From a virus: DNA of 20,511 nt. The stretch covers positions 489 to 20,999 of the IMG/VR virus record IMGVR_UViG_3300022602_000495, one strand, 5' to 3'. The notes under the pieces were generated by a model, which saw only the letters and a program-made list of their open reading frames with translations, was not told the DNA's origin and ran no database searches. Positions 6,651 to 20,511 of this stretch are shown piece by piece; positions within the stretch are counted from its first letter, which is position 1, and every line of letters starts with the position of its first letter. The position numbers and the translations under genes are program-made.

Positions 6651-7778
6651 TTAAAATTGTTTTGTTTTGGTTTTAATGGTATTGCATATATCATTGATGC
6701 CCTCCATTACTTCTCTCATTAATGTAAACCCTGCACCCGTGCTCATTGTGTAGGTTGGCGCATTATTCAGGTAGGTATATAAGCTCCTGAGCTTAGTTTT
6801 GTCAGCTTCTATGTTCTCGGCTGTAGTATTTTTTGCTGGTAATGGCTTACTGAAATCTACAAGCTCAGGTGTAGCAGATGCAGGGACATAATCTGCTGGC
6901 TGAGTATTGCTTATTGTATTTATAGAAGCTGGTGCTGTTTGCGCTGGCTCAGGTATTACTTCTACCTTTGGAGCTTGCTGGGCTTTTAAGGCTTCCTGTT
7001 GAGCTTGCAGCTCTTCTTTCATGCGCTTAATTTCAGCTTGCTGTGCCTTAAGCTCTTCCTGTTGCCTTTTAAACTCTAAGCGTTCAGCTTCTTGCCTTTT
7101 AGCTTCTTCGGCTTTAATGCGTGCTTCTTCGGCCTCAGCTTCCAGCTGTGCCATTTTAGCCTGCTGAATTTGCTCTTGCTCAATGTCATACTCAATTTTT
7201 AGGTTGGTTATGAAGCTGGCAAATTGATGCTCGTCAAATTCCTTTATCTGTGTGTAAGTAATAGAAACGCTATTTAAGCCGTATGTTTCTGTAGCTGGGT
7301 TAAATGCTGCACCATGCTCTAATACTTGCCTCACACGGCTGGCGATGCGTTCTTGCTCTATCCTAATTTGTTCTTGCCTAAGCCTTTCCTTTTCAGCGTC
7401 TATTTCATACTGTTTAGATTGCAGGTAACTTTCAAGTGGTACAAGCTGCTCAATGATACGCTTGGCTTCACTATTTACTGCTCGCTGGTAAGACAGTGCA
7501 TCCTCGGTAAGCTCTTTACGCTTTTTCTCTACATTAACTCGTAAGGTCTTAATTTGTTTGCGTGCTGCATCAACAATGATATAGCCTGTACGGTCAAGCA
7601 CACCGTCAATGGTTAGAGAGCCGTATTTTTCTCTAAGCTTTAGAATGGCATTGTCAATCATCTTTTGCCCATCCTCAATGTCAATACCCTGTATAGTTTC
7701 TACAAGGTCATTGTACTTTGTCAGTGCTTGTTGCACTGGTGTCTGTGTGGCTGGTAAAGCCGTTAATGTTTCACTCAT
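6651..7778 (-). CDS. DUF1351-like coiled-coil early protein
   Basis: The start is placed at the ATG at 7778 (MSETLTALPATQ), giving 375 residues. A longer frame to 7898 only adds translated upstream gene. Residues about 75-125 (DAARKQIKTLRVNVEKKRKE and following) and the long Glu/Gln/Ala/Lys helix at about 135-290 resemble the DUF1351 phage family, which sits beside ssDNA-binding and recombination genes. The C-terminal 60 or so residues form a separate small helical region (TLMREVMEGINDICNTIK). The helix should form an extended coiled coil. The mechanism is unknown. The gene directly precedes the SSB-like gene. Its leader, TTAACCATACAACC about 8 bases before the start, recurs at neighbouring genes. 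Confidence 0.75.
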   Translation of the reverse strand: MSETLTALPATQTPVQQALTKYNDLVETIQGIDIEDGQKMIDNAILKLREKYGSLTIDGVLDRTGYIIVDAARKQIKTLRVNVEKKRKELTEDALSYQRAVNSEAKRIIEQLVPLESYLQSKQYEIDAEKERLRQEQIRIEQERIASRVRQVLEHGAAFNPATETYGLNSVSITYTQIKEFDEHQFASFITNLKIEYDIEQEQIQQAKMAQLEAEAEEARIKAEEAKRQEAERLEFKRQQEELKAQQAEIKRMKEELQAQQEALKAQQAPKVEVIPEPAQTAPASINTISNTQPADYVPASATPELVDFSKPLPAKNTTAENIEADKTKLRSLYTYLNNAPTYTMSTGAGFTLMREVMEGINDICNTIKTKTKQF

Positions 7779-8257: not shown

Positions 8258-8626
8258 TTAAGAAATAAGTGGCTGTGTCGTAGCAGTCACTTTTTTTATG
8301 TGCAGTATGTAGTCCATTTGATTATTAAAGTCGTTCTGAGCCTCACTCCACAGGTATTCCCTGCCCTCTTTTTTGTTGATTATGGTAGCCAACACTTGCC
8401 TATATTCTGCACTTTGCTCCATGCATCTATTGGTCATTAAAAGTTCCACAATGGTTGAAAGGTTTTCATAGAATGGCACTGTCTTAACTAAGTGCGCTGG
8501 CTCAACTTCACTGCTGGTGCCAATAGTTTCACAGCTGCATATATAAGCACCTGTATAAGGCTGGTATTTAAAGCCCATTACTGTAAGCTGGCATTTGTCG
8601 TAGAATTCTTTGTTTACTTGTATCAT
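8258..8626 (-). CDS. Hypothetical early protein
   Basis: A 122-residue soluble protein with no recognised family. It starts MIQVNKEFYDKCQLTVMG and contains two cysteines in an 'AYICSCETIG' segment, followed by a mostly helical half (ENLSTIVELLMTNRCMEQ). The start overlaps the stop of the 64-residue gene upstream (ATGA), so coupling is likely. Its stop codon TAA lies within the leader motif CTTAACAACC of the next gene. No membrane segment or signal peptide. Confidence 0.7.
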   Translation of the reverse strand: MIQVNKEFYDKCQLTVMGFKYQPYTGAYICSCETIGTSSEVEPAHLVKTVPFYENLSTIVELLMTNRCMEQSAEYRQVLATIINKKEGREYLWSEAQNDFNNQMDYILHIKKVTATTQPLIS

Positions 8627-8817
8627 CGGTTGTATTTGGTTGTTTTGCTTAATATTTTTGCAGTTATTTTAGCCTCTGCTTTTGCTATAGCTTGCTGTCG
8701 TAGTTGTATTTTATTCGCTAATTTTCTTTTTGCAGCAATTTCATCCAGCTGCCTTATAGCCATAATCTTCATTAGTTCAGCAGCCATTTGTTGCTCGTAC
8801 AAACTGTCTGTTAACAT
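8623..8817 (-). CDS. Small helical early protein
   Basis: A 64-residue Ala/Lys/Gln-rich protein (MAAELMKIMAIRQLDEIAAK and onward) predicted to be almost entirely helical and basic. It could be a small coiled coil or nucleic-acid-associated protein. It is the second gene of the early operon, 12 bases after the Cro-position gene, and ends in a four-base overlap with the next gene. No family recognised. Confidence 0.65.
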   Translation of the reverse strand: MLTDSLYEQQMAAELMKIMAIRQLDEIAAKRKLANKIQLRQQAIAKAEAKITAKILSKTTKYNR

Positions 8818-8829
8818 TTAGATTAATTG

Positions 8830-9048
8830 TTAAGCGTTAACTTTATTAATTATGGTTTCTATTGTGGAAGGTTTGCCTCTGCCTTTAAGCAGTACAGCAT
8901 CAAGTGTAACTGTGCTGAACCCAAAGTATTCGGCAGCATCAATTTTTGTATCAAAGGCTTTTACCTTTCTTTTAAATGCACTGTGCATTTCAGGGCTAAG
9001 TCTTGCACTTTTTCGCACCCTTTCTGTTACTTGTAATGTGTCTTGCAT
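8830..9048 (-). CDS. Small DNA-binding protein in the Cro position
   Basis: A 72-residue protein, first gene of the leftward early operon and divergent from the repressor. Residues about 25-62 (KRKVKAFDTKIDAAEYFGFS then TVTLDAVLLKGRGKPSTIET) have the rhythm of a Cro/C1-type helix-turn-helix: 'DAAEYFGFSTVTLDAVL' for the turn and recognition helix, then a basic Gly-Lys-Pro. Position, size and fold suggest a Cro-like antirepressor of lysogeny that would bind the palindromic operator in the adjoining intergenic region. This assignment rests on position plus a plausible HTH and not on a recognised homologue. Confidence 0.7.
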   Translation of the reverse strand: MQDTLQVTERVRKSARLSPEMHSAFKRKVKAFDTKIDAAEYFGFSTVTLDAVLLKGRGKPSTIETIINKVNA

Positions 9049-9857: not shown

Positions 9858-10412
9858 ATGAAATATTTATTTTTCTTACTGCTGCCATTTGCTGCCAGTA
9901 GCCAAACAATAAAATTGAATGCTGAGGCTGGCTTATCTACCAATAGCGTGAAATACAGCTTCCCAGCTTATAGCGTTGCATTGCCAAACCCTGTGTCTTG
10001 TACTGGCTATACTATTGGCGCGAATGCTGAAATGCCAGTCATAGGAAAAGGAAGCATTATTGCAGGCATCAGCTATCAAGGTTTATACTATGCCAATTAT
10101 CTTGATGCAAATACAGCCGCTACCGATAAAGCAACTTACAGCCTAATGAAAATAAAGGCTGGATATTTACACTACTTTGGAATGTTTAATGCTGGTGCAT
10201 ATCTGTCATACCATGCAGCATTGTCTAAGTCTATTAATTCATTTTTTAGCCCAGCCATTACAGCAGGCATAAGTAAAGGCAGGTATAGAATTAATATTGA
10301 AGCTGGCCTATCATTTGGCAACATGGCACCAAATAATGAAAATTACTCTGTTAATGAAAATATGACCAGCTTTGCGCTATGCTTGAACTATAGCCTTTTC
10401 ACGTTCAAATAA
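9858..10412 (+). CDS. Exported beta-barrel-like outer-membrane protein
   Basis: A 184-residue protein with a clear signal peptide (MKYLFFLLLPFAASSQ, cleavage probably before or after Gln16). The mature part is built of alternating amphipathic strands and glycine-rich turns (AGLSTNSVKYSF, AGISYQGLYYANYL, INIEAGLSFGNMAP) and ends in an aromatic-rich strand finishing Phe-Lys (FALCLNYSLFTFK). This is the pattern of a small 6-8-strand outer-membrane barrel. It sits 10 bases after the repressor in the lysogenic transcript, before the putative attP. Such repressor-linked exported genes are usually lysogenic-conversion or superinfection-exclusion factors; that role here is inference. No specific family recognised. 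Confidence 0.75.
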   Translation: MKYLFFLLLPFAASSQTIKLNAEAGLSTNSVKYSFPAYSVALPNPVSCTGYTIGANAEMPVIGKGSIIAGISYQGLYYANYLDANTAATDKATYSLMKIKAGYLHYFGMFNAGAYLSYHAALSKSINSFFSPAITAGISKGRYRINIEAGLSFGNMAPNNENYSVNENMTSFALCLNYSLFTFK

Positions 10413-11912: not shown

Positions 11913-12503
11913 CTAACTATTTGCAGGCAATAGCTCTGCTATAGCTGCCTGATAATATTTTGTCCTGACATCAATGCCATTCTCACCACCATTGATATGA
12001 TAGGTTATTCTTTGCACCTTATTCCAAACCTTACCATGATCATCAGTGAAAGTCCAGTCTTCGGGTTGGTCAGCAATTTTATTTAAATTCTTTACTGTTG
12101 TCCATATCCAGCATGCACTTGCAATGCCCAGCTCAGGTGTAGCCACAACATCAGGTGTCACTACCAGCCTATTATCACTATATAGAAAGTGGCTTAGCTT
12201 AGTGTACATATCTCTACCAGTAGCTTGCAGGCCTCCGCGACCTTTAAACTTCTCACCGTCACCAGCATAAACATTTCCAAGGTCTTTGCGACCCTCATAC
12301 TGCTTTCCACTGCTAAGCTCTTCCATCCATTTGAACAAGCCACACTCTTCAAGCACTTGGCTTAGGAAGCCAGCCACCCGTTGAGGTGTATCAATTTGGA
12401 ATTTAGGCATGTACTTATTGAGGTAAGGCAAAAATGTTTCTACTGCCTTATCGCTAATTTGTGGAGCAATGGCTTTCAGCTGCTCCCCTGTTAGTGGGTT
12501 CAT
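11913..12503 (-). CDS. Endolysin, glycoside hydrolase family 19 type
   Basis: A 196-residue lysozyme of the GH19 (chitinase-like) family that cleaves peptidoglycan glycan strands at the end of infection. Diagnostic blocks are QVLEECGLFKWMEEL with catalytic Glu53 (the family often has His-Glu-Ser here; this protein reads Glu52-Glu53-Cys54), the long YEGRKDLGN ... GDGEKFKGRGGLQATGR block (about 69-97), and ITYHINGGENGIDVR near the C terminus. Length is normal for a single-domain phage GH19 enzyme and there is no signal peptide, so holin-dependent release is expected. The gene is last in the late operon and overlaps the upstream membrane-protein gene by four bases (ATGA). Confidence 0.92.
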   Translation of the reverse strand: MNPLTGEQLKAIAPQISDKAVETFLPYLNKYMPKFQIDTPQRVAGFLSQVLEECGLFKWMEELSSGKQYEGRKDLGNVYAGDGEKFKGRGGLQATGRDMYTKLSHFLYSDNRLVVTPDVVATPELGIASACWIWTTVKNLNKIADQPEDWTFTDDHGKVWNKVQRITYHINGGENGIDVRTKYYQAAIAELLPANS

Positions 12504-12865
12504 AATTTTAAAGCTGTTTTAATTTCTTGTTCTAAATCATCAAATGTCAATCCGCCTTTTTGCTTTGCGGCATTTATGCACTCCAGCACTTTTGCTTTAA
12601 CCGTATGGTCAAGCATAGCAGCAAAGCTGTCAGCATCAAGCTGGATAGCTTTAGCCTCTACGCTTATATTGGTGAGTGTTGTATCTTTAGCATAATCTTT
12701 TATTGCCTTAATATTTTCAGCAAGCTTTTCTTCTAATTGCCTGCCAGCAGCGATAGCTTTTTCTTCCTCTTGAATAAAAAAGCTTTTAATCTTACTGCCA
12801 TACTTTACATTAAAGAAAATACCAGCAATAAATGTCAATAGGCCTAAAAGGATATAGTTTGTCAT
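12500..12865 (-). CDS. Lysis-block membrane protein with one N-terminal helix
   Basis: A 121-residue protein with one N-terminal membrane helix (YILLGLLTFIAGIFFNV), a charged, mainly helical middle that may form a coiled coil (EEEKAIAAGRQLEEKLAENI), and an acidic/amphipathic C terminus. Topology (one anchor, long soluble part) fits an inner-membrane spanin (Rz-like) or an accessory holin. Translational coupling to the endolysin by a four-base overlap supports a lysis role. No family recognised. Confidence 0.65.
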   Translation of the reverse strand: MTNYILLGLLTFIAGIFFNVKYGSKIKSFFIQEEEKAIAAGRQLEEKLAENIKAIKDYAKDTTLTNISVEAKAIQLDADSFAAMLDHTVKAKVLECINAAKQKGGLTFDDLEQEIKTALKL

Positions 12866-12868
12866 AAT

Positions 12869-13528
12869 TTAAAATTTGATTAGTGAATATTGAACTGCTA
12901 AACCTACACTAAGGCCAGTGAACCCATACCCTATATATGGTCCTACAGACCAGTGCTTTTTCTTTTCAGTTTGAATAAGTACTCCTTGCAGGCCTACTAC
13001 CTTAGCATTAGGGTTAAGATTGTAAGCATCTATGTAAGTATCATGCTTAAACCAGCCTTTTCCTTTGGCGTAAGTGGTTACTATAATGCTGTCATAGGTC
13101 TTATAGTCAATTACAGCACTGTCACCAATGGTAGCATTTAATTGCAGCCATTTATCATTGTAAGCAATATGCTTTTTGACCTTATCGCCAATTCTTACGG
13201 TATCTGTCATGACAATAATATGGCTACTGTCAACAGTTTTAACTCCAGCTATAGACTTAATGCTTGACTGCTTAATTTTCAAAGCCTTTGCCACACTGTC
13301 AAGCATTTCAGCATATACTTCCTGAGCAGTCTTAAGGTCTGCTTCTGCTATTTGCCTCTGTGCGTGCTCACGGCCTTGCTGGTCTTGGTAGTAGCTTATA
13401 GTATCTACCATAGCAGCCAGCACGTTATCTTTCATTCTTAGCTGGCTGACAGCACTGTTACAGGTTTTTACTGTAACTATTAAGGCAAGAGCCAAAATAG
13501 TCGTTAGGATTGCCAAATATTTATTCAT
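12869..13528 (-). CDS. Membrane-anchored coiled-coil protein with beta-rich C terminus (spanin-like candidate)
   Basis: A 219-residue protein with an N-terminal membrane anchor (YLAILTTILALALIVTVKTC) ending in a Cys, then a coiled coil (about 35-85, GREHAQRQIAEADLKTAQEV), then beta segments with repeated Asp-Thr motifs (DSSHIIVMTDTVRIGD). The last 30 residues (HWSVGPYIGYGFTGLSVGLA and VQYSLIKF) look like an outer-membrane beta-hairpin ending in Phe. An inner-membrane anchor, periplasmic coiled coil and outer-membrane-like end would span the envelope, as a one-protein spanin does. Similar anchor/coiled-coil/beta proteins are common beside endolysins in Bacteroidota phages, with function unassigned. 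The spanin call is inference. Confidence 0.65.
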   Translation of the reverse strand: MNKYLAILTTILALALIVTVKTCNSAVSQLRMKDNVLAAMVDTISYYQDQQGREHAQRQIAEADLKTAQEVYAEMLDSVAKALKIKQSSIKSIAGVKTVDSSHIIVMTDTVRIGDKVKKHIAYNDKWLQLNATIGDSAVIDYKTYDSIIVTTYAKGKGWFKHDTYIDAYNLNPNAKVVGLQGVLIQTEKKKHWSVGPYIGYGFTGLSVGLAVQYSLIKF

Positions 13529-13871
13529 TTGTCTGTGCTGGGGCTGCTTGTTGGTTAGAGTTTAATTTTGCTTTCTCCCATGCAGTAGCACCTATACCAA
13601 AGGCCACTAATGAGCCAAGACTATAGTACATAGTATCTGATACCACAAACTTCAATATCACTACCATAAGCGTAATATCAATGATCAATAGCGTGTAAAG
13701 GAATACCACGAACCTCTTTTGGCTGGGGCTGGTGTCAATACTGCTGATTGTCTGCTTTATAAAGTCCCAGTTTTTGTATAGGAATGCAGCAATGCAAATG
13801 AAGTGTACAAAATAGATAAAATAGTTTCCCAGGGAGTGTCCATGGTTTTGAATGTAGTTAGGTATTTTCAT
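13521..13871 (-). CDS. Holin-like protein with three membrane helices
   Basis: The start is set at the ATG at 13871 (MKIPNYIQNHG), giving 116 residues. The longer frame to 13931 only reads through the upstream gene. Three hydrophobic segments are visible: YFIYFVHFICIAAFLY (about 18-35), FVVFLYTLLIIDITLMVVIL (about 55-75) and YYSLGSLVAFGIGATAW (about 82-98), followed by a short polar Gln/Ala-rich tail. Size and the three-helix topology fit a class I holin, which would open the inner membrane for the GH19 endolysin three genes downstream. It overlaps the genes on both sides by 8-14 bases. Confidence 0.68.
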   Translation of the reverse strand: MKIPNYIQNHGHSLGNYFIYFVHFICIAAFLYKNWDFIKQTISSIDTSPSQKRFVVFLYTLLIIDITLMVVILKFVVSDTMYYSLGSLVAFGIGATAWEKAKLNSNQQAAPAQTNE

Positions 13872-14229
13872 TGTTTTGTTTTTGTTTGATGTAAATAAAA
13901 TTGTCATGAATATGTTGCATTCTGCCGTCAAGGAGCTTAAGCTCTTTTGAATGGCTGTATGTTGTATTTTTAAGCTGCTCTATGTCCTTAGCATGGCTAA
14001 GGCTGGTAAGAGCTTGCTGGTTTTGTGCCTCACCCAGCTTGACTATAGACTGTATAATTTCATTGGACTTCTTTATCCAAATGCCACCTAAATAAATTGC
14101 CACCCTCCAGCCACCAGTTACAATAGCTATCAAGACTGCTAATAAACCACTACCTACATACTTAACCAGTTGCCAAATATTTTGGTCAATCATTTGCTGT
14201 ACCTGTGTATCTGTTAACTGGCTGCCCAT
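13858..14229 (-). CDS. Single-pass membrane protein with coiled coil (accessory lysis protein?)
   Basis: A 123-residue protein: a polar N terminus (MGSQLTDTQVQQMIDQ), one or two hydrophobic segments (YVGSGLLAVLIAIVTGGW, VAIYLGGIWI) and a helical, coiled-coil-like C-terminal half (EIIQSIVKLGEAQNQQALTS). It resembles phage proteins such as haemolysin XhlA-like or DUF-type accessory holins in having helix plus coiled coil, though the order here is reversed. Position directly before the three-helix holin candidate supports a lysis role. No family recognised with confidence. Confidence 0.62.
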   Translation of the reverse strand: MGSQLTDTQVQQMIDQNIWQLVKYVGSGLLAVLIAIVTGGWRVAIYLGGIWIKKSNEIIQSIVKLGEAQNQQALTSLSHAKDIEQLKNTTYSHSKELKLLDGRMQHIHDNFIYIKQKQNNENT

Positions 14230-14231
14230 TG

Positions 14232-14690
14232 TTACCTCAATAGTTTATTATAATTAACATTAAATGTCAAATTCCATGCTGTGCCTGCAATGGCTTCCCA
14301 TAGTATCATATCCCAAACTGGGTGTTTCTTGATTATAGGAAAGTTCTCATGGCATACTACTGAAACAGGTACACATATAAGCACTACCATTGTTGATTTG
14401 CAGAAATGCCACCCATCTATGGGATAACCTGCAATGTGTGGTGAATGGTCGCTGCTGTACCCGTTTTCATGGTTAAAGAATTGTGGGTTGTTAAACTTAG
14501 CAAATAACGATGTATGATAATGGTCGCTCATTTCATCCATAGCACTATTGCATAGGCTTGCACCCATAACGCTGCCACTTATTACAAACGCCTTAATGTC
14601 CTTTTTCTCGCCTAATGTCAATCGGGCATTAGCGTTAAAGCATAAGCAACAAAGCAATATGGTTATTGCGTATTTAATTCCTCTTTCCAT
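14232..14690 (-). CDS. Exported membrane-associated protein, unknown
   Basis: A 152-residue protein with an N-terminal signal peptide (MERGIKYAITILLCCLCFNA, cleavage likely at NANA|R). The mature part has six cysteine or histidine-containing stretches (HSPHIAGYPIDGWHFCK), one probable membrane segment (TMVVLICVPVSVVC) and a C-terminal aromatic region (WEAIAGTAWNLTFNVNYN). The layout recalls small phage membrane proteins with a 'GWH-x-x-K' block, but I cannot name a family. It overlaps the upstream gene by 28 bases. It is the most downstream member of the compositionally distinct segment. Role unknown: surface modification, exclusion and lysis are all possible. Confidence 0.6.
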   Translation of the reverse strand: MERGIKYAITILLCCLCFNANARLTLGEKKDIKAFVISGSVMGASLCNSAMDEMSDHYHTSLFAKFNNPQFFNHENGYSSDHSPHIAGYPIDGWHFCKSTMVVLICVPVSVVCHENFPIIKKHPVWDMILWEAIAGTAWNLTFNVNYNKLLR

Positions 14691-15061
14691 GCTATTGATA
14701 TTTCGGGTGGTAAATTGGCTTTAACCCATTGATAAATGTATTTAGGGTCATCGCCATGCCAATCTGCATATTGAAACGGTACGCATATGCTATCATTATT
14801 AATTACCAAATCATTTCGGTACAATGAAATGCCATTTAAGGTTTCTATGCGTACATGAATTATGGCTTCCGTAACCTCGTTATCATCTGCCTTAACTATC
14901 ATTATGGCATTGATATTGGTTACTGGAAAAAAGGCATTCGTACTTGTAAAAGTACATGGTGCATAGGGCGCATGAATTAAACTATCAGGCTCATGTACGT
15001 TTTGTGCCTTAACGGTGAAAATGCTTGCAACAAGGGCAAGCAAAACAATTAGTTTTTTCAT
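14663..15061 (-). CDS. Small secreted/periplasmic protein, unknown
   Basis: A 132-residue protein with a classical signal peptide (MKKLIVLLALVASIFTVKAQ, cleavage likely at KA|Q, as in many Bacteroidota exported proteins). The mature part is beta-rich and ends acidic (SICVPFQYADWHGDDPKYIY). Its stop overlaps the next gene by 28 bases and its start overlaps the upstream gene by 4 bases (ATGA), giving a tightly coupled trio. No family recognised. In a late phage operon an exported small protein could reach the periplasm or outer membrane before lysis. Confidence 0.68.
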   Translation of the reverse strand: MKKLIVLLALVASIFTVKAQNVHEPDSLIHAPYAPCTFTSTNAFFPVTNINAIMIVKADDNEVTEAIIHVRIETLNGISLYRNDLVINNDSICVPFQYADWHGDDPKYIYQWVKANLPPEISIAWKEELNTQ

Positions 15062-15483
15062 TTCTTTTTGTGTGGTTTTTGTTGAGGAATTATTTTTTTC
15101 AAACTGTCAAATTCTCTATTCAAGGTTTCAATGATGTATGTTTGGTACTTTATCACGCTATCTGTTGGTTGTTGGTAAAGTCCTTGCGTTAATTGAATTA
15201 TCGGTGCTGCGGTTTTAAATGGCAATTCAGCTACATATTTTTCCAATGCATCTAATTGCTTTGCGTACACTACAAAACTTTCAGTTTTTGGATGCTGTTG
15301 CGCTGCTAATTTTGCTTTGGCATCTTGCACACTATCCATATAATGTTGCAGCACTTCGGGCGAACTGAATGTTATCTTACTTGTGTAATGCACCGTATCA
15401 GGTTTAATCTCATAAGATTGAGCATTACAAAATGTTGCTGTTACTGTCAGCATCAGTGTCATTAGGAAAAGTTTAATTTTCAT
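15058..15483 (-). CDS. Exported helical protein, unknown
   Basis: A 141-residue protein with a signal peptide (MKIKLFLMTLMLTVTATFCN then AQ; cleavage near NA|Q). The mature part is mainly helical and polar (SPEVLQHYMDSVQDAKAKLA, FVVYAKQLDALEKYVAEL) and ends in a strongly basic tail (QQKPHKKK). It follows the fiber gene by 20 bases and is coupled to the next gene by a four-base overlap. A periplasmic or surface-associated chaperone for the fiber is one possibility, but no family is recognised. Confidence 0.68.
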   Translation of the reverse strand: MKIKLFLMTLMLTVTATFCNAQSYEIKPDTVHYTSKITFSSPEVLQHYMDSVQDAKAKLAAQQHPKTESFVVYAKQLDALEKYVAELPFKTAAPIIQLTQGLYQQPTDSVIKYQTYIIETLNREFDSLKKIIPQQKPHKKK

Positions 15484-15503
15484 TTGAAATTTATATTTGG
15501 TTA

Positions 15504-17591
15504 TTAATTGCCTACCATTAATTTGTATGTTGTACCACCTATTGATACTGTTACATATCCGACCTGCGTCAAAGAACCTGCGGTATATCCAGTTGTTGCC
15601 AATACGCTATTCCATGCACCGTTCAACCTTAACATGCGCTGCTTATTGGTATTATCATGCACTTCCAATCCCTCAATTGGAGATGCTATTGCATTTAATT
15701 GTGTATTAGTCATTGCAGGCACTAAGAAACCTTTTGTGGTACTAAATATTTGAACCAATGCAGATGCATCATTTGTTCCTACATCATTACCGATTGAAAA
15801 ACCCGATGTCCTATTGAACGATTGGTAGGTTGAAAATGTCCTAAACCACGAATAGCCTAATTGTGTTGAGAATGCACCGCCATCATAAAAACGCCAACCA
15901 TCACCAACACATGCAGCATAAGTATTATTACTAACCCCACCATCTATCATTATAGCAGAACCCGATTTTACAACCACATTTCCGCTTGAATCAACTGTAA
16001 ATTTAGCTGCTGTTGCCGCACCATAAATGCCGAATGTGTTTGCTGTATTTGTGGCAACTATTCCAAATCTATATGATTTATCTGTTGTACTGCCTATAGT
16101 CCAATCTCCTGTACTCGCATTTATAGAACCTCTTGAACCACCTATATTAAATGTTAAGCCTGCCATTATGTTACCAAAGTCCAAATAAGACGATGAAGAT
16201 GCGCCTACAACTCCACCACTTGAATAAATGCCACCATATTGGTCAATATATGCTTTTTGTAAACCGTTGGTTTTAAATGATGCTAAATTGTTTGTCCAGC
16301 CACTTGGTGCATTCAATAACATTGCACCATTAATTCCTAATATGCTTGCCGCATTTCTTGTCAATGTCAAATCAGGTGTATTTATTTGCCCAGTAAGTGA
16401 ACCCCAACCGATTTGATAATCTGCTGCTAAATCAATACCCGTTGCATAAGCATTACCATTGTCTAATGCAATGGCTGTTTGTGTACCTGCACCATTGTAT
16501 AATCTAACAGTTTTATATACTGAAACATTACCGTTAAATTTACCGTTGCCCCATGTTCTATCATTAAGGGTATCAGGCAATCCTGCATATGTGCTGCTTA
16601 TTGCTTTCCATTTAATACTATCCGTTGAATAATCATAATACCCTACATATCCATTCATTGCGCTTGTTGGTGTCATTACTCCTTTGCCCTCAATTCCTTT
16701 TATCGTAAATGCACCCGTATTGCTCATGTTAGCATCACCACTTATTGAAAACCAATTTGTGCCTACCATTCCCCTTATTGGTATATTGCCATTGCTACCC
16801 CTATCACGAACATAACCGCCTAACATTGTGGATGTGTCGCTGTAGTTCACCTTATACCCAAACCTTGTGCCTAATGTTGCTGTATCGGTATTTAATGCCG
16901 CTAAATTGTTTTTATAATTTAATAGCATGTTTGATGTGTCGCCCTGTCCTATATAAGTAGGTGTCCAGTTATGCCATTTGCTGTCACTGCTTTGGTATTG
17001 TAATATTTGCCCATTAGTAGGACTACTTATGTTAGCATCTGTAAGGGCACTCAAACTGGTGACTGTAGGTATAGTCCAGCTTCTATCTGCACTGAGGTCT
17101 AACTGGGTGCCGTTAATAGTCAATTTTCTTGTTAGAGGTACAAAGGTGCTCTGTCCCCAGTAGTGTGTCGCTATGCGCGAAGTATCAGGCACACCATTGT
17201 TAGCATTGAAAAAGGTCTTTGTTACATAAATACCGCTATCATCTAATGTCAATACATAACGCTTCTTAGTGCTATCAAAGTAAGTCAAACGCTTAGTTCT
17301 AATATCTACACCTAAATCACCATACTTCGCATTGGTCATGCTGTCAAAATAGATAGGCTGGAGCAATAAGCCTTTCTTGCCACCATAGACACCTAAGTCA
17401 AGTAAAGCACTGCTGTCAGGGTTTGTGTCTGCATTCTTACCTATAGCCATTCTACCCCATATCCTTATAGGGTCATACCTTAAAGACTGCTGGGCAAACG
17501 TATTGCTAAAAGCAAATAGAAGCATGAATGCTAAACTTAAGCCTGCAAGTCTATTTTTTAATTGCTCAATTATGATCTGTAGCTTTTTCAT
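15504..17591 (-). CDS. Large fiber-like / receptor-binding protein with an N-terminal signal peptide
   Basis: A 695-residue protein. Residues 1-33 are a typical signal peptide: basic start, hydrophobic LAGLSLAFMLLFAF, then FAQ. After that come short repetitive beta-rich segments typical of phage tail fibers: LTINGTQLDLSADRSWTIP (about 160), NGQILQYQSSDSKWHNWTP (about 200), SGDANMSNTGAFTIKGIEGK, and a C-terminal block (SPIEGLEVHDNTNKQRMLRL then NGAWNSV) followed by GYVTVSIGGTTYKLMVGN. There is no S74 chaperone domain. This points to a trimeric adhesin or fiber that recognises the host surface. The signal peptide is unusual for a virion protein. The N-terminal third shares the composition of the flanking phage genes, while the rest differs. 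It could instead be a secreted or surface adhesin carried by the phage. Confidence 0.72.
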   Translation of the reverse strand: MKKLQIIIEQLKNRLAGLSLAFMLLFAFSNTFAQQSLRYDPIRIWGRMAIGKNADTNPDSSALLDLGVYGGKKGLLLQPIYFDSMTNAKYGDLGVDIRTKRLTYFDSTKKRYVLTLDDSGIYVTKTFFNANNGVPDTSRIATHYWGQSTFVPLTRKLTINGTQLDLSADRSWTIPTVTSLSALTDANISSPTNGQILQYQSSDSKWHNWTPTYIGQGDTSNMLLNYKNNLAALNTDTATLGTRFGYKVNYSDTSTMLGGYVRDRGSNGNIPIRGMVGTNWFSISGDANMSNTGAFTIKGIEGKGVMTPTSAMNGYVGYYDYSTDSIKWKAISSTYAGLPDTLNDRTWGNGKFNGNVSVYKTVRLYNGAGTQTAIALDNGNAYATGIDLAADYQIGWGSLTGQINTPDLTLTRNAASILGINGAMLLNAPSGWTNNLASFKTNGLQKAYIDQYGGIYSSGGVVGASSSSYLDFGNIMAGLTFNIGGSRGSINASTGDWTIGSTTDKSYRFGIVATNTANTFGIYGAATAAKFTVDSSGNVVVKSGSAIMIDGGVSNNTYAACVGDGWRFYDGGAFSTQLGYSWFRTFSTYQSFNRTSGFSIGNDVGTNDASALVQIFSTTKGFLVPAMTNTQLNAIASPIEGLEVHDNTNKQRMLRLNGAWNSVLATTGYTAGSLTQVGYVTVSIGGTTYKLMVGN

Positions 17592-17592
17592 A

Positions 17593-17847
17593 TTACCAGC
17601 GATTGTCTTTACATTTTTCTTCTTTAACTAATGTCTTTTCATTTATCGGGCACCCACATAGACCACATTTTACAGCAGCTATATTGTGCCCATTGCCTCG
17701 TAAGAACTTTAAGAAACTGCTACTCTTAGCATGAGGACAAGCAGTGCATATCATAATTCTTTCTTGGCTTCTTATTTTATCTTCTTTGCTTGCTTCTATA
17801 AGGTTTAAGGTCTTAGCCCACCCTATAGCTATATGCTTTAAGTTCAT
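17593..17847 (-). CDS. Small Cys-rich (zinc-ribbon-like) phage protein
   Basis: The start is set at the ATG at 17847, which shares a base with the stop of the upstream gene (TAATG). The longer frame to 17910 only re-reads that gene. The 84-residue protein has Cys34-x2-Cys37 in ICTACPH, Cys61-x2-Cys64-x-Cys66 in KCGLCGCPI, then Lys71 and a final Cys79 ... Trp84 (KCKDNRW). This is the layout of small Bacteroidota phage proteins in which C-x-x-C-G-C-P-x-x-x-K is followed by C-x4-W. Zinc binding is likely. Its place between structural genes suggests a role in assembly or a late regulatory function; neither is proven. Confidence 0.75.
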   Translation of the reverse strand: MNLKHIAIGWAKTLNLIEASKEDKIRSQERIMICTACPHAKSSSFLKFLRGNGHNIAAVKCGLCGCPINEKTLVKEEKCKDNRW

Positions 17848-18923
17848 TATAATTTCTTCTTTAGTGTTAGTATGCATCTTAAAGGAGTGCTCGGTGCTGG
17901 AGTTATCCATGTCACTTTGTTGTCCTGTAAGGGTTTTGCATTCATGTCCCCGTCGTCAGTACCGATAAATAATTCAGTACCCTCCATTGACATGTTTATA
18001 AGCTCAGCGCCTACGAAATAGTTATTTAGTTCTTGGTAGTTGCTTTCACTGCCAGTAGGATATTGCTGCTGGCCTGCCACAGTTGTAAACTGGAAACGTT
18101 TTATATCATAGCCCATTTGTGTCGGGGATGTTGTAGTGGCGTTAAAATCAAAAAACGGTCTTTTTACTAAAGGCCAGTCCTCATTTATTTCTTTAGACCT
18201 ATGCCTATGTGGGTATATATCCATAAGCATGTCAGTCTTACCCTGTGTGGCTACACCCCTCTCACGTTCACTGTGTGGCCTATCACCTAAGCAGCTTTCG
18301 CATATCTTAAAGTAATTTGGATATAGTGTAGGGTCAACGTATTTCTTTTCACATAACCAAGCGTGCATTGAAGCTTGAAGTGGTGCAATACGTTCTTTCA
18401 TAATGCTTGAAAGTTTATACTGCACATCCTTTGCGCTTCCTGTGCCGCTTCCTTTACCGTCACTGCCTATAGTAATAGGGTTATTACTCTGCTGGCCTTG
18501 TGCCGTATGCTGGAGCCATGAGGGCACAGTAGTCATGGCATCTACAGCCTCAGCGCATAGCCTCCATAAGAAACGCTGCCATAGATTTACATAATCAACA
18601 TTAGTGACATACTCTATAGCGTTGACCCATGTGCCAATAGGCAACTGGGTACTGGTTATGGTTTGCTTACTAGCAGCAGCCAGTGAAGCATTAATTAAAG
18701 CTAATTGGTCTGCTTGATTATCAGAGGTTATCTGCACGTTTTTCATGCCTATAAGCTCCTCATAGAATGTATTACCTATAGCCTGCACAATAAACCGTTC
18801 TTCAGCCACCTCAATATTTTGCAAGACAAGCCTAATATTGACATCTTGGTCTGTAGGTGCTTTAGCTACAAACTCGTCAACTGTCAATAAGACTGGCCTA
18901 CCAGTATAATTAATTCTGTACAT
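17847..18923 (-). CDS. Head-tail connector-position structural protein (DUF6712-like)
   Basis: A 358-residue protein immediately after the portal gene (14-base overlap). The N-terminal region (LLTVDEFVAKAPTDQDVNIR, later VQAIGNTFYEEL) resembles uncharacterised Bacteroidota phage structural proteins of the DUF6712 type, which are thought to occupy the head-completion or connector position. The middle contains a Gly/Ser linker (GSDGKGSGTGSAKD) and a segment with Cys (CESCLGDRP). The C-terminal region is beta-rich (NYFVGAELINMSMEGTELFI). No enzyme motif is seen. The family match is from memory of the N-terminal pattern; the connector role comes from gene order. Confidence 0.6.
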   Translation of the reverse strand: MYRINYTGRPVLLTVDEFVAKAPTDQDVNIRLVLQNIEVAEERFIVQAIGNTFYEELIGMKNVQITSDNQADQLALINASLAAASKQTITSTQLPIGTWVNAIEYVTNVDYVNLWQRFLWRLCAEAVDAMTTVPSWLQHTAQGQQSNNPITIGSDGKGSGTGSAKDVQYKLSSIMKERIAPLQASMHAWLCEKKYVDPTLYPNYFKICESCLGDRPHSERERGVATQGKTDMLMDIYPHRHRSKEINEDWPLVKRPFFDFNATTTSPTQMGYDIKRFQFTTVAGQQQYPTGSESNYQELNNYFVGAELINMSMEGTELFIGTDDGDMNAKPLQDNKVTWITPAPSTPLRCILTLKKKL

Positions 18924-20334
18924 TATTCGGCTTGTTTGGGTTATTGTTTGGCTGGTTATTGTCTTGCTTAGGTGCAGCAGCTTTTATAAACTGCTCACCA
19001 CGTTCACCCTCTATAGGTGTTAAGCCTGCAATAGCTCTACCCTCATTGACTTTGGTAATGCTATTGATGTCTATATCACCTAAGAAAGTAACAGGTAACA
19101 CACTCTGTAGTGAAATATCATACTGGCTCCATTTGGTGCCCATCCACTGGTCACATATTTGCATCAATGGCTTTATGAATTTCTTAATGACATATTCTTG
19201 CTGTGGTTTGATAGTAGTATTATTGGCAATGTCAAATATGCTCCTTATGTAAGAGCTACCAGCACTGCCAAGACCACTTTTTTTATCAATGCCACATAAA
19301 TAGCCTGACCAGTTATTCGCAGCAACAATCTTGTCCTGTATATGCTGGTCCAGCTCAATGAAGCTGCCCTGCTGGTCACGGTTGAAAGGCACTATATCGC
19401 TTTTCTCAATTCCACCCTGTGAGCTAAGTATAACCCACTTGCCTCTTTGCCCATCACCTGAGTGCTGGAAGACAATATCCTTACCTATTTTCCTTGCTTC
19501 TTCATCTGTGAGATTGCCTTTAATAAGCATCATACCGCCTATTTCAAGGTTATTCTCAAAGTTGTCTATATTGAACCTTGCGGCTTGATATTCCAAAATT
19601 TGCTCAGGTAAGCTGCTGACATTGCTTGGCATACCGTAATAGTCATAACCACTTATTTTATTTTTCAAGTGGAATATGGTATGCTCGAAGCCGTCATCGG
19701 ACTTTACCCAAGGATTGTCAAAGGTGTTGAAGCTATGTAAAGGCACAGTCATGTAACTGCCCTTATTCATGTTCCATACGCCCTCACGCCTAAATTCTTT
19801 GCTTATGATCACAAAGGAAGGCTCGTCAAAATCTTCATCGGGTCTATTAAGCCTACAGTCTAAAACTGAACGCATAAAGACCTTAACAAACTTTTTGCCA
19901 CCCACTGCACCACGAACTACCTCTACATAGGCATTCCCCAGTGTAAATAAGTTCTCAAATATGTCACATAGTACATTATTCAAATCGTCATTGTGGTTGA
20001 CAGCAGCAGCCCATTCTGTAAGCAGCTTATCTTCTTTCTTGTCTTTAATGAACCAGCCTTTACCGATACAATACTGCACCTTTGAAGTAATGCAGGCCAC
20101 TGTAGTTGGTGAAAGGGTTTTAGCTTCCAGCAATATTCTTGGGAAGTTGTCGCGTGGGTTTAAGAAAGGTATGTATTTATGACCCGTATGGGAAACAAAT
20201 ATCCTACTCCTATATTCAATAGGAATAGGATTAGTAGGGTCTAATCTAACGGCATTGGAAATTGTGCGGCCTTTGGCACTCTTAGAGGTTGCAGGCTTAG
20301 CTTTAGGTACTTCCTTTCCAAGTTTGTTAGACAT
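18910..20334 (-). CDS. Phage portal protein
   Basis: A 474-residue portal protein, the dodecameric ring through which DNA enters the capsid. Supporting stretches are FTLGNAYVEVVRGAVGGKKF (about 150), the YGMPSNVSSLPEQILEYQAA helix (about 235), NIDNFENNLEIGGMMLIKG, and the later IFDIANNTTIKPQQEYVIKK followed by FIKPLMQICDQW, the usual order for phage portals of the HK97 or PBSX/XkdE type. The N terminus is basic and Ser/Lys-rich. The C terminus is a flexible Asn/Pro/Gln-rich tail. Length is typical (about 450-550). The gene starts 55 bases after the stop of the unidentified gene at the window edge. Confidence 0.88.
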   Translation of the reverse strand: MSNKLGKEVPKAKPATSKSAKGRTISNAVRLDPTNPIPIEYRSRIFVSHTGHKYIPFLNPRDNFPRILLEAKTLSPTTVACITSKVQYCIGKGWFIKDKKEDKLLTEWAAAVNHNDDLNNVLCDIFENLFTLGNAYVEVVRGAVGGKKFVKVFMRSVLDCRLNRPDEDFDEPSFVIISKEFRREGVWNMNKGSYMTVPLHSFNTFDNPWVKSDDGFEHTIFHLKNKISGYDYYGMPSNVSSLPEQILEYQAARFNIDNFENNLEIGGMMLIKGNLTDEEARKIGKDIVFQHSGDGQRGKWVILSSQGGIEKSDIVPFNRDQQGSFIELDQHIQDKIVAANNWSGYLCGIDKKSGLGSAGSSYIRSIFDIANNTTIKPQQEYVIKKFIKPLMQICDQWMGTKWSQYDISLQSVLPVTFLGDIDINSITKVNEGRAIAGLTPIEGERGEQFIKAAAPKQDNNQPNNNPNKPNNVQN

Positions 20335-20389
20335 TCTAATATTTGTTTTTAATTAAATGTTTTCAATCAATCCTTTGCCATTCAGCAGC

Positions 20390-20511
20390 TTATTGAGCTG
20401 GTGTATTGTCGGGTGCTGGCGTGTTGCCCTGTGCAGTGCTATCACTGGCAGTAGCTGGGCTTGGAGTGCCATTGCCTGAATCCTGTGGCTGGCCTGCTGC
20501 TGGGGTTGTAG
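20390..20511 (-). CDS. C-terminal end of an unidentified late gene (window edge)
   Basis: An open frame runs in from the right edge for 39 codons and stops at 20392-20390 (TAA). The visible part is a low-complexity Pro/Ala/Thr/Ser/Gln tail, for example TTPAAGQPQDSGNGTPSP and ending DNTPAQ. Such tails occur on several phage structural proteins, and the portal also ends in a similar flexible polar tail. Identity cannot be judged. A terminase large subunit often precedes the portal gene, but this tail is not diagnostic. Confidence 0.65.
   Translation of the reverse strand, partial: TTPAAGQPQDSGNGTPSPATASDSTAQGNTPAPDNTPAQ

Follow-up and report, generated by a model that had tools for sequence, protein, structure and literature searches.

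The window analysed here is a stretch of 20,511 nucleotides, bases 489 to 20,999 of the 20,999-bp virus record IMGVR_UViG_3300022602_000495, which encodes an SNF2-type helicase, a peptidase S24-type repressor and an integrase and derives from a temperate phage of a Bacteroidota lineage. The late operon lies on the minus strand, with the portal gene at the contig edge and the tail module outside the contig, and is transcribed in the order portal, connector-like protein, Cys-rich protein, fibre (17591–15504, 695 residues) and three small proteins of 141, 132 and 152 residues, after which come two transmembrane (TM) proteins, a DUF6549 protein, another small TM protein and the endolysin (Table 1). 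The fibre ATG is located one base past the stop codon of the preceding gene, and the protein begins with MKKLQIIIEQLKNRLAGLSLAFMLLFAFSNTFA followed by QQSL, which resembles a standard Sec signal peptide with an AXA-like site in front of the Gln. The open reading frames are as described in the initial annotation, which overlooked this signal peptide and took the fibre for an ordinary virion protein. The present analysis concerns the fibre gene and its small neighbours between 14.23 and 17.59 kb, where a break in sequence composition falls inside the fibre gene.

Foreign composition of the fibre tip and two small genes

The words CCAGC and GCTGG occur 16 times in 12500–14231, once in 14232–16950 and 21 times in 16951–20511, and the gap of 2189 bp between occurrences is longer than the maximum gap of every one of 100 order-4 simulations (mean 962), which confirms their initially reported near-absence over 2.7 kb. 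AAGCT is likewise missing from 14036–17078. A 2.7-kb sliding scan has its maximum at 14201–14301 for word lengths k of 3, 4 and 5 (at k = 4, a G of 514 versus a maximum of 212 under an order-3 Markov null), and unsupervised segmentation returns 14151–16950 as the most deviant segment of the window at both k = 3 and k = 4, almost equal to the previously proposed cassette, 14232–16950; the compositional shift is therefore real. Within 14232–16950, AGCT and CCAG/CTGG are specifically scarce and ATTG, AATG and TGCA enriched, a word bias that could be the trace of restriction avoidance or of donor word usage.

Fibre genes are unusual in amino acid content, and the shift might reflect nothing but a Gly/Ser/Thr/Asn-rich fibre, devoid of any evolutionary signal. 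However, it persists when the proteins are held fixed and synonymous codons are resampled from the backbone (500 resamplings), with AGCT found 2 times versus 15.7 expected, CCAG 5 versus 22.6 (0/500) and CTGGC 0 versus 6.2, while the N-terminal third of the same gene lacks the signal. Amino acid content is thereby ruled out as the cause, and an explanation by protein composition retains next to no probability. The synonymous 4-mer bias correlates with the backbone at 0.60–0.78 in other blocks, at 0.04 in the fibre tip and at 0.20 in the three small genes jointly; along the window the mean correlation is 0.52 outside the segment and 0.06 inside, the segment interior being the only stretch of about zero correlation.

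Leave-one-gene-out correlation with the backbone refines this picture gene by gene. Fibre codons 1–213 are native (0.56; backbone 0.47 ± 0.09) and those past about 213 foreign (about 0), the 141-residue gene is foreign (0.00; backbone minimum 0.16), the 132-residue gene foreign-like (0.09; backbone mean 0.38, minimum 0.07) and the 152-residue gene ambiguous to native (0.27; backbone 0.42 ± 0.10). The foreign block consists of fibre codons ~213–695 and the 141- and 132-residue genes, about 14.69–16.95 kb, and is limited on the left at ~14.69 kb, between the 132- and 152-residue genes, and on the right at ~16.95 kb, fibre codon ~213. The breakpoint suspected near 16.95 kb within the fibre gene is thus recovered by both segmentation and leave-one-gene-out analysis, and of the proposed cassette the fibre tip and two of the three small genes stand. 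The right limit coincides with the end of the motif SPTNGQILQYQSSDSKWHNW (fibre residues ~179–214), common to other fibre-like proteins. Since codon use of the integrase gene is likewise atypical (z 4.5), a codon shift by itself does not single out the block in a genome as mosaic as this one. Promoter- and terminator-like sites are no more frequent in the region than expected by chance and repeats are short and imperfect, so no mark of a recombination site is visible.

Variable slot content in related phages

Portal searches retrieved eight viral contigs and three prophages, and a connector search four more Chitinophagaceae prophages besides L014 (L007, L010, L011 and L013 are near-duplicates of other loci). 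Portal and connector are kept in all relatives, and DUF6549 or a TM lysis-type cluster with an endolysin lies downstream in most. The genes in between encode proteins of 304 residues in L002, 155 (exported) in L003, 574, 84, 433 and 150 in L006, 152 and 388 in L008, 410 in L009, 794 in L012, 774 in L014, 927 in L026, 950 in L027, 860 in L028, and 376 and 565 in L029, and no relative of any window slot protein was found by BLAST in the relatives' slots. The interval from portal and connector to the lysis genes is an exchange slot whose content differs in every relative, which supports the modular part of the earlier idea.

Signal-peptide fibre-like proteins occupy the slot in 6 of 12 loci (the window, L003, L006, L008, L027 and L029, the last with one of its two slot proteins positive by the scoring rule) versus 3 of 93 genes upstream, and the fibre-type slot proteins of L002, L009, L012, L014, L026 and L028 are without one. 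The exported L029 protein has a domain with a homologue in FL-1, an isolated phage of Flavobacterium, namely in a fibre-like protein that is encoded beside the portal and lacks a signal peptide. A common small exported protein is found beside different fibres in L003, L006 and L008; its AlphaFold2 model (predicted local distance difference test, pLDDT, 37) was of too low quality to search for related folds. L003 additionally encodes two different 141-residue signal-peptide proteins within its head-gene module (7214–7639 and 8594–9019).

The three small window proteins, initially all regarded as signal-peptide proteins, do not form one group. The 141- and 132-residue proteins are predicted to be exported, while the 152-residue protein is a polytopic membrane protein (family A12) with homologues in 3 of 296 Chitinophagaceae and 3 of 395 Bacteroidota genomes. 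In L024 and L025 the homologue follows TM proteins and a spanin-type lipoprotein, and in L023 it follows small TM genes and is placed among baseplate genes; all three loci are contractile-tail prophages with fibres unrelated to that of the window. Because its homologues accompany unrelated fibres, the 152-residue protein is not a partner of this tip, with which its near-native composition agrees, and it belongs to the neighbouring lysis-type genes. A fixed unit of a fibre tip with three exported partners, as initially envisaged, is hence not upheld; for the 152-residue gene, the refuting outcome named in the initial proposal, conservation alongside unrelated tips, was observed. No relatives of the 152-residue protein were found in a single-protein search of viral contigs, none of the 141- and 132-residue proteins in viral contigs or compared loci, and none of the 132-residue protein in the 296 Chitinophagaceae genomes. 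The two predicted exported proteins match no family, and thus no known fibre chaperone (Tfa and gp38 families included), and what connects them with the tip is their position, the overlap of reading frames and the foreign composition that they share with it. No superinfection-exclusion family was matched in PADLOC, Pfam or NCBIfam.

Predicted export of fibre-like proteins and its possible role

A similar arrangement recurs in contractile prophages, in which a small tail protein, A11, precedes the fibre position among neighbours that include a PHROG baseplate hub. Of 296 Chitinophagaceae genomes, 24 encode A11, and at 12 loci (L023 (three), L025, L063, L064, L065, L067, L069, L071, L072, L075, L080 and L087) it is a separate gene, right after baseplate genes, with a signal-peptide fibre-like gene behind it; the L069 signal peptide begins at an ATG within the gene, and L075 has one small gene in between. 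The next gene lacks a signal peptide where A11 is fused to the fibre (L066, L070, L073 and L074) or consists of its first domain only (L076–L079 and L081, with L067 and L087 as exceptions). Similarity among the exported fibres of these prophages is mostly confined to the signal peptide and the next 65–90 residues, and the tips differ, a pattern that the composition break suggests for the window fibre as well. Small exported genes follow the fibre-like genes in L064, L072, L080 and L087. Three tandem signal-peptide fibre-like genes, 57–59% identical over the full length, follow one baseplate module in L023 (12278–15870).

Isolated Winoviridae phages of Flavobacterium carry the same module without signal peptides. 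The Winoviridae-like phages lotta8-1, fF4 and FPSV-S1 have the same baseplate order as the Chitinophagaceae prophages, and the A11 anchor domain opens the fibre-type protein of lotta8-1 and of FPSV-S1; in fF4 it has a gene of its own, with a further gene behind it. The downstream or fused protein bears no signal peptide in these three phages, whereas many of the Chitinophagaceae prophages have one.

The place of the window gene in the late operon is that of a fibre, the same slot as the fibre-type genes of L012, L014, L026 and L028, and the short motif of residues 179–214 matches cyanophage tail-fibre-like proteins, although it occurs in a probably cellular exported protein as well. By the current view, tailed phages assemble their tail fibres in the cytoplasm, and signal peptides are not expected on them; in this respect the window fibre, with its predicted Sec signal peptide, departs from a typical tail fibre. 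Library searches with the fibre returned one weak PHROG of unknown function and no Pfam or NCBIfam family, phage records gave short motif matches only, searches of viral contigs with the whole fibre and with its N-terminus yielded no relatives, and no convincing relative was found among solved structures; the AlphaFold2 model (pLDDT 34) was too poor for a fold search. Both ends of the protein have counterparts in bacterial genomes. Residues 42–142 match (E 9e-11) the domain after the signal peptide in fibre-like proteins of L108–L112, and the C-terminal domain (595–690) has matching proteins in 129 of 296 Chitinophagaceae genomes, nearly all of those examined with predicted signal peptides. 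That both end domains occur in signal-peptide proteins supports a genuine export of the fibre.

In L108–L112, five Chitinophagaceae genomes, the matching gene is the last of a conserved chromosomal cluster of ~10 genes, which encodes proteins of 275, 443, 326, 181 and 175 residues and TM proteins and gave no convincing Pfam or PHROG match. Shared flanks suggest vertical inheritance of the cluster, which may encode a phage-like particle that has been domesticated; the likeness of its 443-residue protein to a capsid protein was judged by eye only.

The abundance of the C-terminal domain in Chitinophagaceae, the presence of three copies of the 180–214 motif in the probably cellular exported protein L113 and the foreign composition would also fit the uptake, as cargo (a moron), of a block of bacterial genes for exported surface proteins, in which case the likeness to fibres would reflect shared repetitive adhesin domains and have no role in adsorption. 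Such an origin appears improbable, as the N-terminal part of the fibre is native in composition, the slot is filled with fibre-type genes in nearly every relative, and the same arrangement directly follows baseplate genes in unrelated contractile prophages. Bacteroidota exported repeat proteins with TTKG-type domains resemble the window fibre in their signal peptide and in the domains at both termini, but the window copy resides in a phage late operon and has a phage-native N-terminus.

The composition break, the variable slot, the predicted signal peptides and their recurrence are best brought together by a model that we favour tentatively, with somewhat less than even confidence, in which the 14.23–17.59 kb interval is a fibre slot for a Sec-exported fibre-type protein. 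The N-terminal module with its signal peptide would be conserved and different tips swapped onto it, here along with two small exported genes whose products would work with the tip in the periplasm in a chaperone- or cofactor-like manner. The fibre would be held in the periplasm late in infection until holin and endolysin open the cell, whereupon it would join the tails, or leave with them, and serve as an adsorption fibre. Within this model, the virion location, the chaperone-like role and the assembly at lysis are inferred.

Several points weigh against this model. First, the signal peptides were scored with an in-house rule and not with SignalP. Next, no relative with the same fibre N-terminus and another tip was found in viral contigs, so that the breakpoint rests on composition and not on alignment. 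The small exported proteins of L072 and L080 are 43% identical and their fibres alike mainly at the N-terminus; with partners conserved and tips different, the partner may follow the N-terminal class more closely than the tip, and the partner role of the 141- and 132-residue proteins is a guess. Finally, we know of no precedent for a periplasmic fibre assembling onto a cytoplasmic tailed virion. Because domains of the window fibre occur in probably cellular exported proteins, it could instead be an adhesin of the cell surface that forms no part of the virion.

Alternatively, the exported fibre-like protein would stay off the virion and act in or on the host envelope, from the prophage or late in infection. 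By binding the phage receptor it would mask it, exclude superinfecting phages or prevent re-adsorption to debris. T5 Llp and lambda Lom, respectively a receptor blocker and a lysogenic-conversion protein, are exported phage proteins, and T5 Llp illustrates that known phages block receptors in this way; the predicted Sec signals of the fibre and of the small proteins and the domains in common with exported Bacteroidota proteins point in the same direction. On the other hand, the gene has a late-operon place where sister phages have fibre-type genes without signal peptides, no second fibre candidate was recognised in the L003 tail genes, read by eye only, and neither an outer-membrane anchor nor a sorting domain was noticed in the fibre, its family searches having given no match. 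We consider an envelope role rather unlikely, yet a stronger contender than bacterial cargo. Like T5 Llp and lambda Lom, the window protein would be exported by the phage-encoding cell and may act at the envelope; unlike them, it is of fibre type and located in the fibre slot. Lambda Lom has been described as a lysogenic-conversion protein (PMC12309495).

Tip exchange itself is already well known from the cassettes of tip and chaperone P2 H/G, Mu S/U and lambda Stf/Tfa, with which the window shares the break inside the fibre gene, a conserved N-terminus, a variable tip and small genes directly 3′. In contrast to these systems, the window fibre and small genes carry predicted Sec signal peptides, and the small genes have neither a Tfa/gp38-family match nor relatives. 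A Bacteroides phage study describes target proteins of diversity-generating retroelements without signal peptides (PMC6199706), in contrast to the exported-fibre pattern found here. No description of Sec-exported fibre modules was found in a literature search largely without subscription journals. To our knowledge, Sec-exported tail fibres have not been reported. Several unrelated Bacteroidota phage lineages might have come to export their receptor-binding fibres from the cytoplasm, with a Sec signal on a conserved N-terminal module, a periplasmic wait with small exported partners and tail joining only at lysis, tips and partners being exchanged together; such a generalisation is at present doubtful. 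If the exported proteins are virion fibres, their assembly cannot be complete before lysis; otherwise, receptor masking is conceivable for the fibre-like proteins exported by many Chitinophagaceae prophages. In either case, host-range genes would be overlooked by automated annotation in which a signal peptide counts against a protein being a fibre.

Flanking genes and other features

Table 1 Features of the late operon around the fibre slot, in order of transcription.
Feature	Coordinates	Strand	Basis
Portal protein, conserved backbone, upstream flank	18910–20334	−	PHROG portal, E 1.8e-9; homologues with 37–52% identity in all relatives
Connector-like protein (MYRIN family), conserved backbone	17847–18923	−	Relatives' homologues directly 3′ of portal
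Cys-rich zinc-ribbon-like protein, last conserved gene before slot	17593–17910	−	41% to L003:12082–12414; homologues in L014, L027, L029
Fibre, predicted Sec signal peptide (MKKLQIIIEQLKNRLAGLSLAFMLLFAFSNTFA, then QQSL)	17493–17591	−	Sequence; in-house rule
Fibre N-terminal part, native composition	16953–17492	−	Residues 42–142 homologous to exported chromosomal fibre-like proteins
Fibre tip (residues ~214–695), foreign composition	15504–16952	−	C-terminal domain 595–690 occurs in exported Bacteroidota proteins
141-residue predicted exported protein, Lys-rich C-terminus, foreign composition	15058–15483	−	No relatives found
132-residue predicted exported protein, foreign composition	14663–15061	−	No relatives found
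152-residue multi-pass membrane protein (CNSxMD...DxWHxxKS...WNxxFNxxYN), not clearly foreign	14232–14690	−	Homologues in Chitinophagaceae/Bacteroidota genomes
Small TM protein, first of lysis-like cluster	13858–14229	−	Sequence; comparable TM genes here in L002, L003
TM protein of lysis-like cluster	13521–13931	−	Sequence; position as in L003
DUF6549 protein, membrane-anchored, spanin-like by position	12869–13528	−	Pfam PF20186, E 8e-11; homologues in L002, L003, L026, L028
Endolysin	11913–12503	−	42% to L027:7279–7845, whose L012 relative is GH19

No Rfam or tRNA features were found in the window. The connector-like protein has ~110 extra C-terminal residues compared with its relatives, and its gene overlaps that of the Cys-rich protein by 64 bp. 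An exported protein of 184 residues is encoded between repressor and integrase (9858–10412, plus strand), and the same placement is seen in L003 for an exported pair on the minus strand, a 195-residue protein with a SHOCT domain (17250–17837) and an 80-residue lipoprotein (17887–18129); the proteins so placed in the window and L003 are candidates for expression from the prophage.

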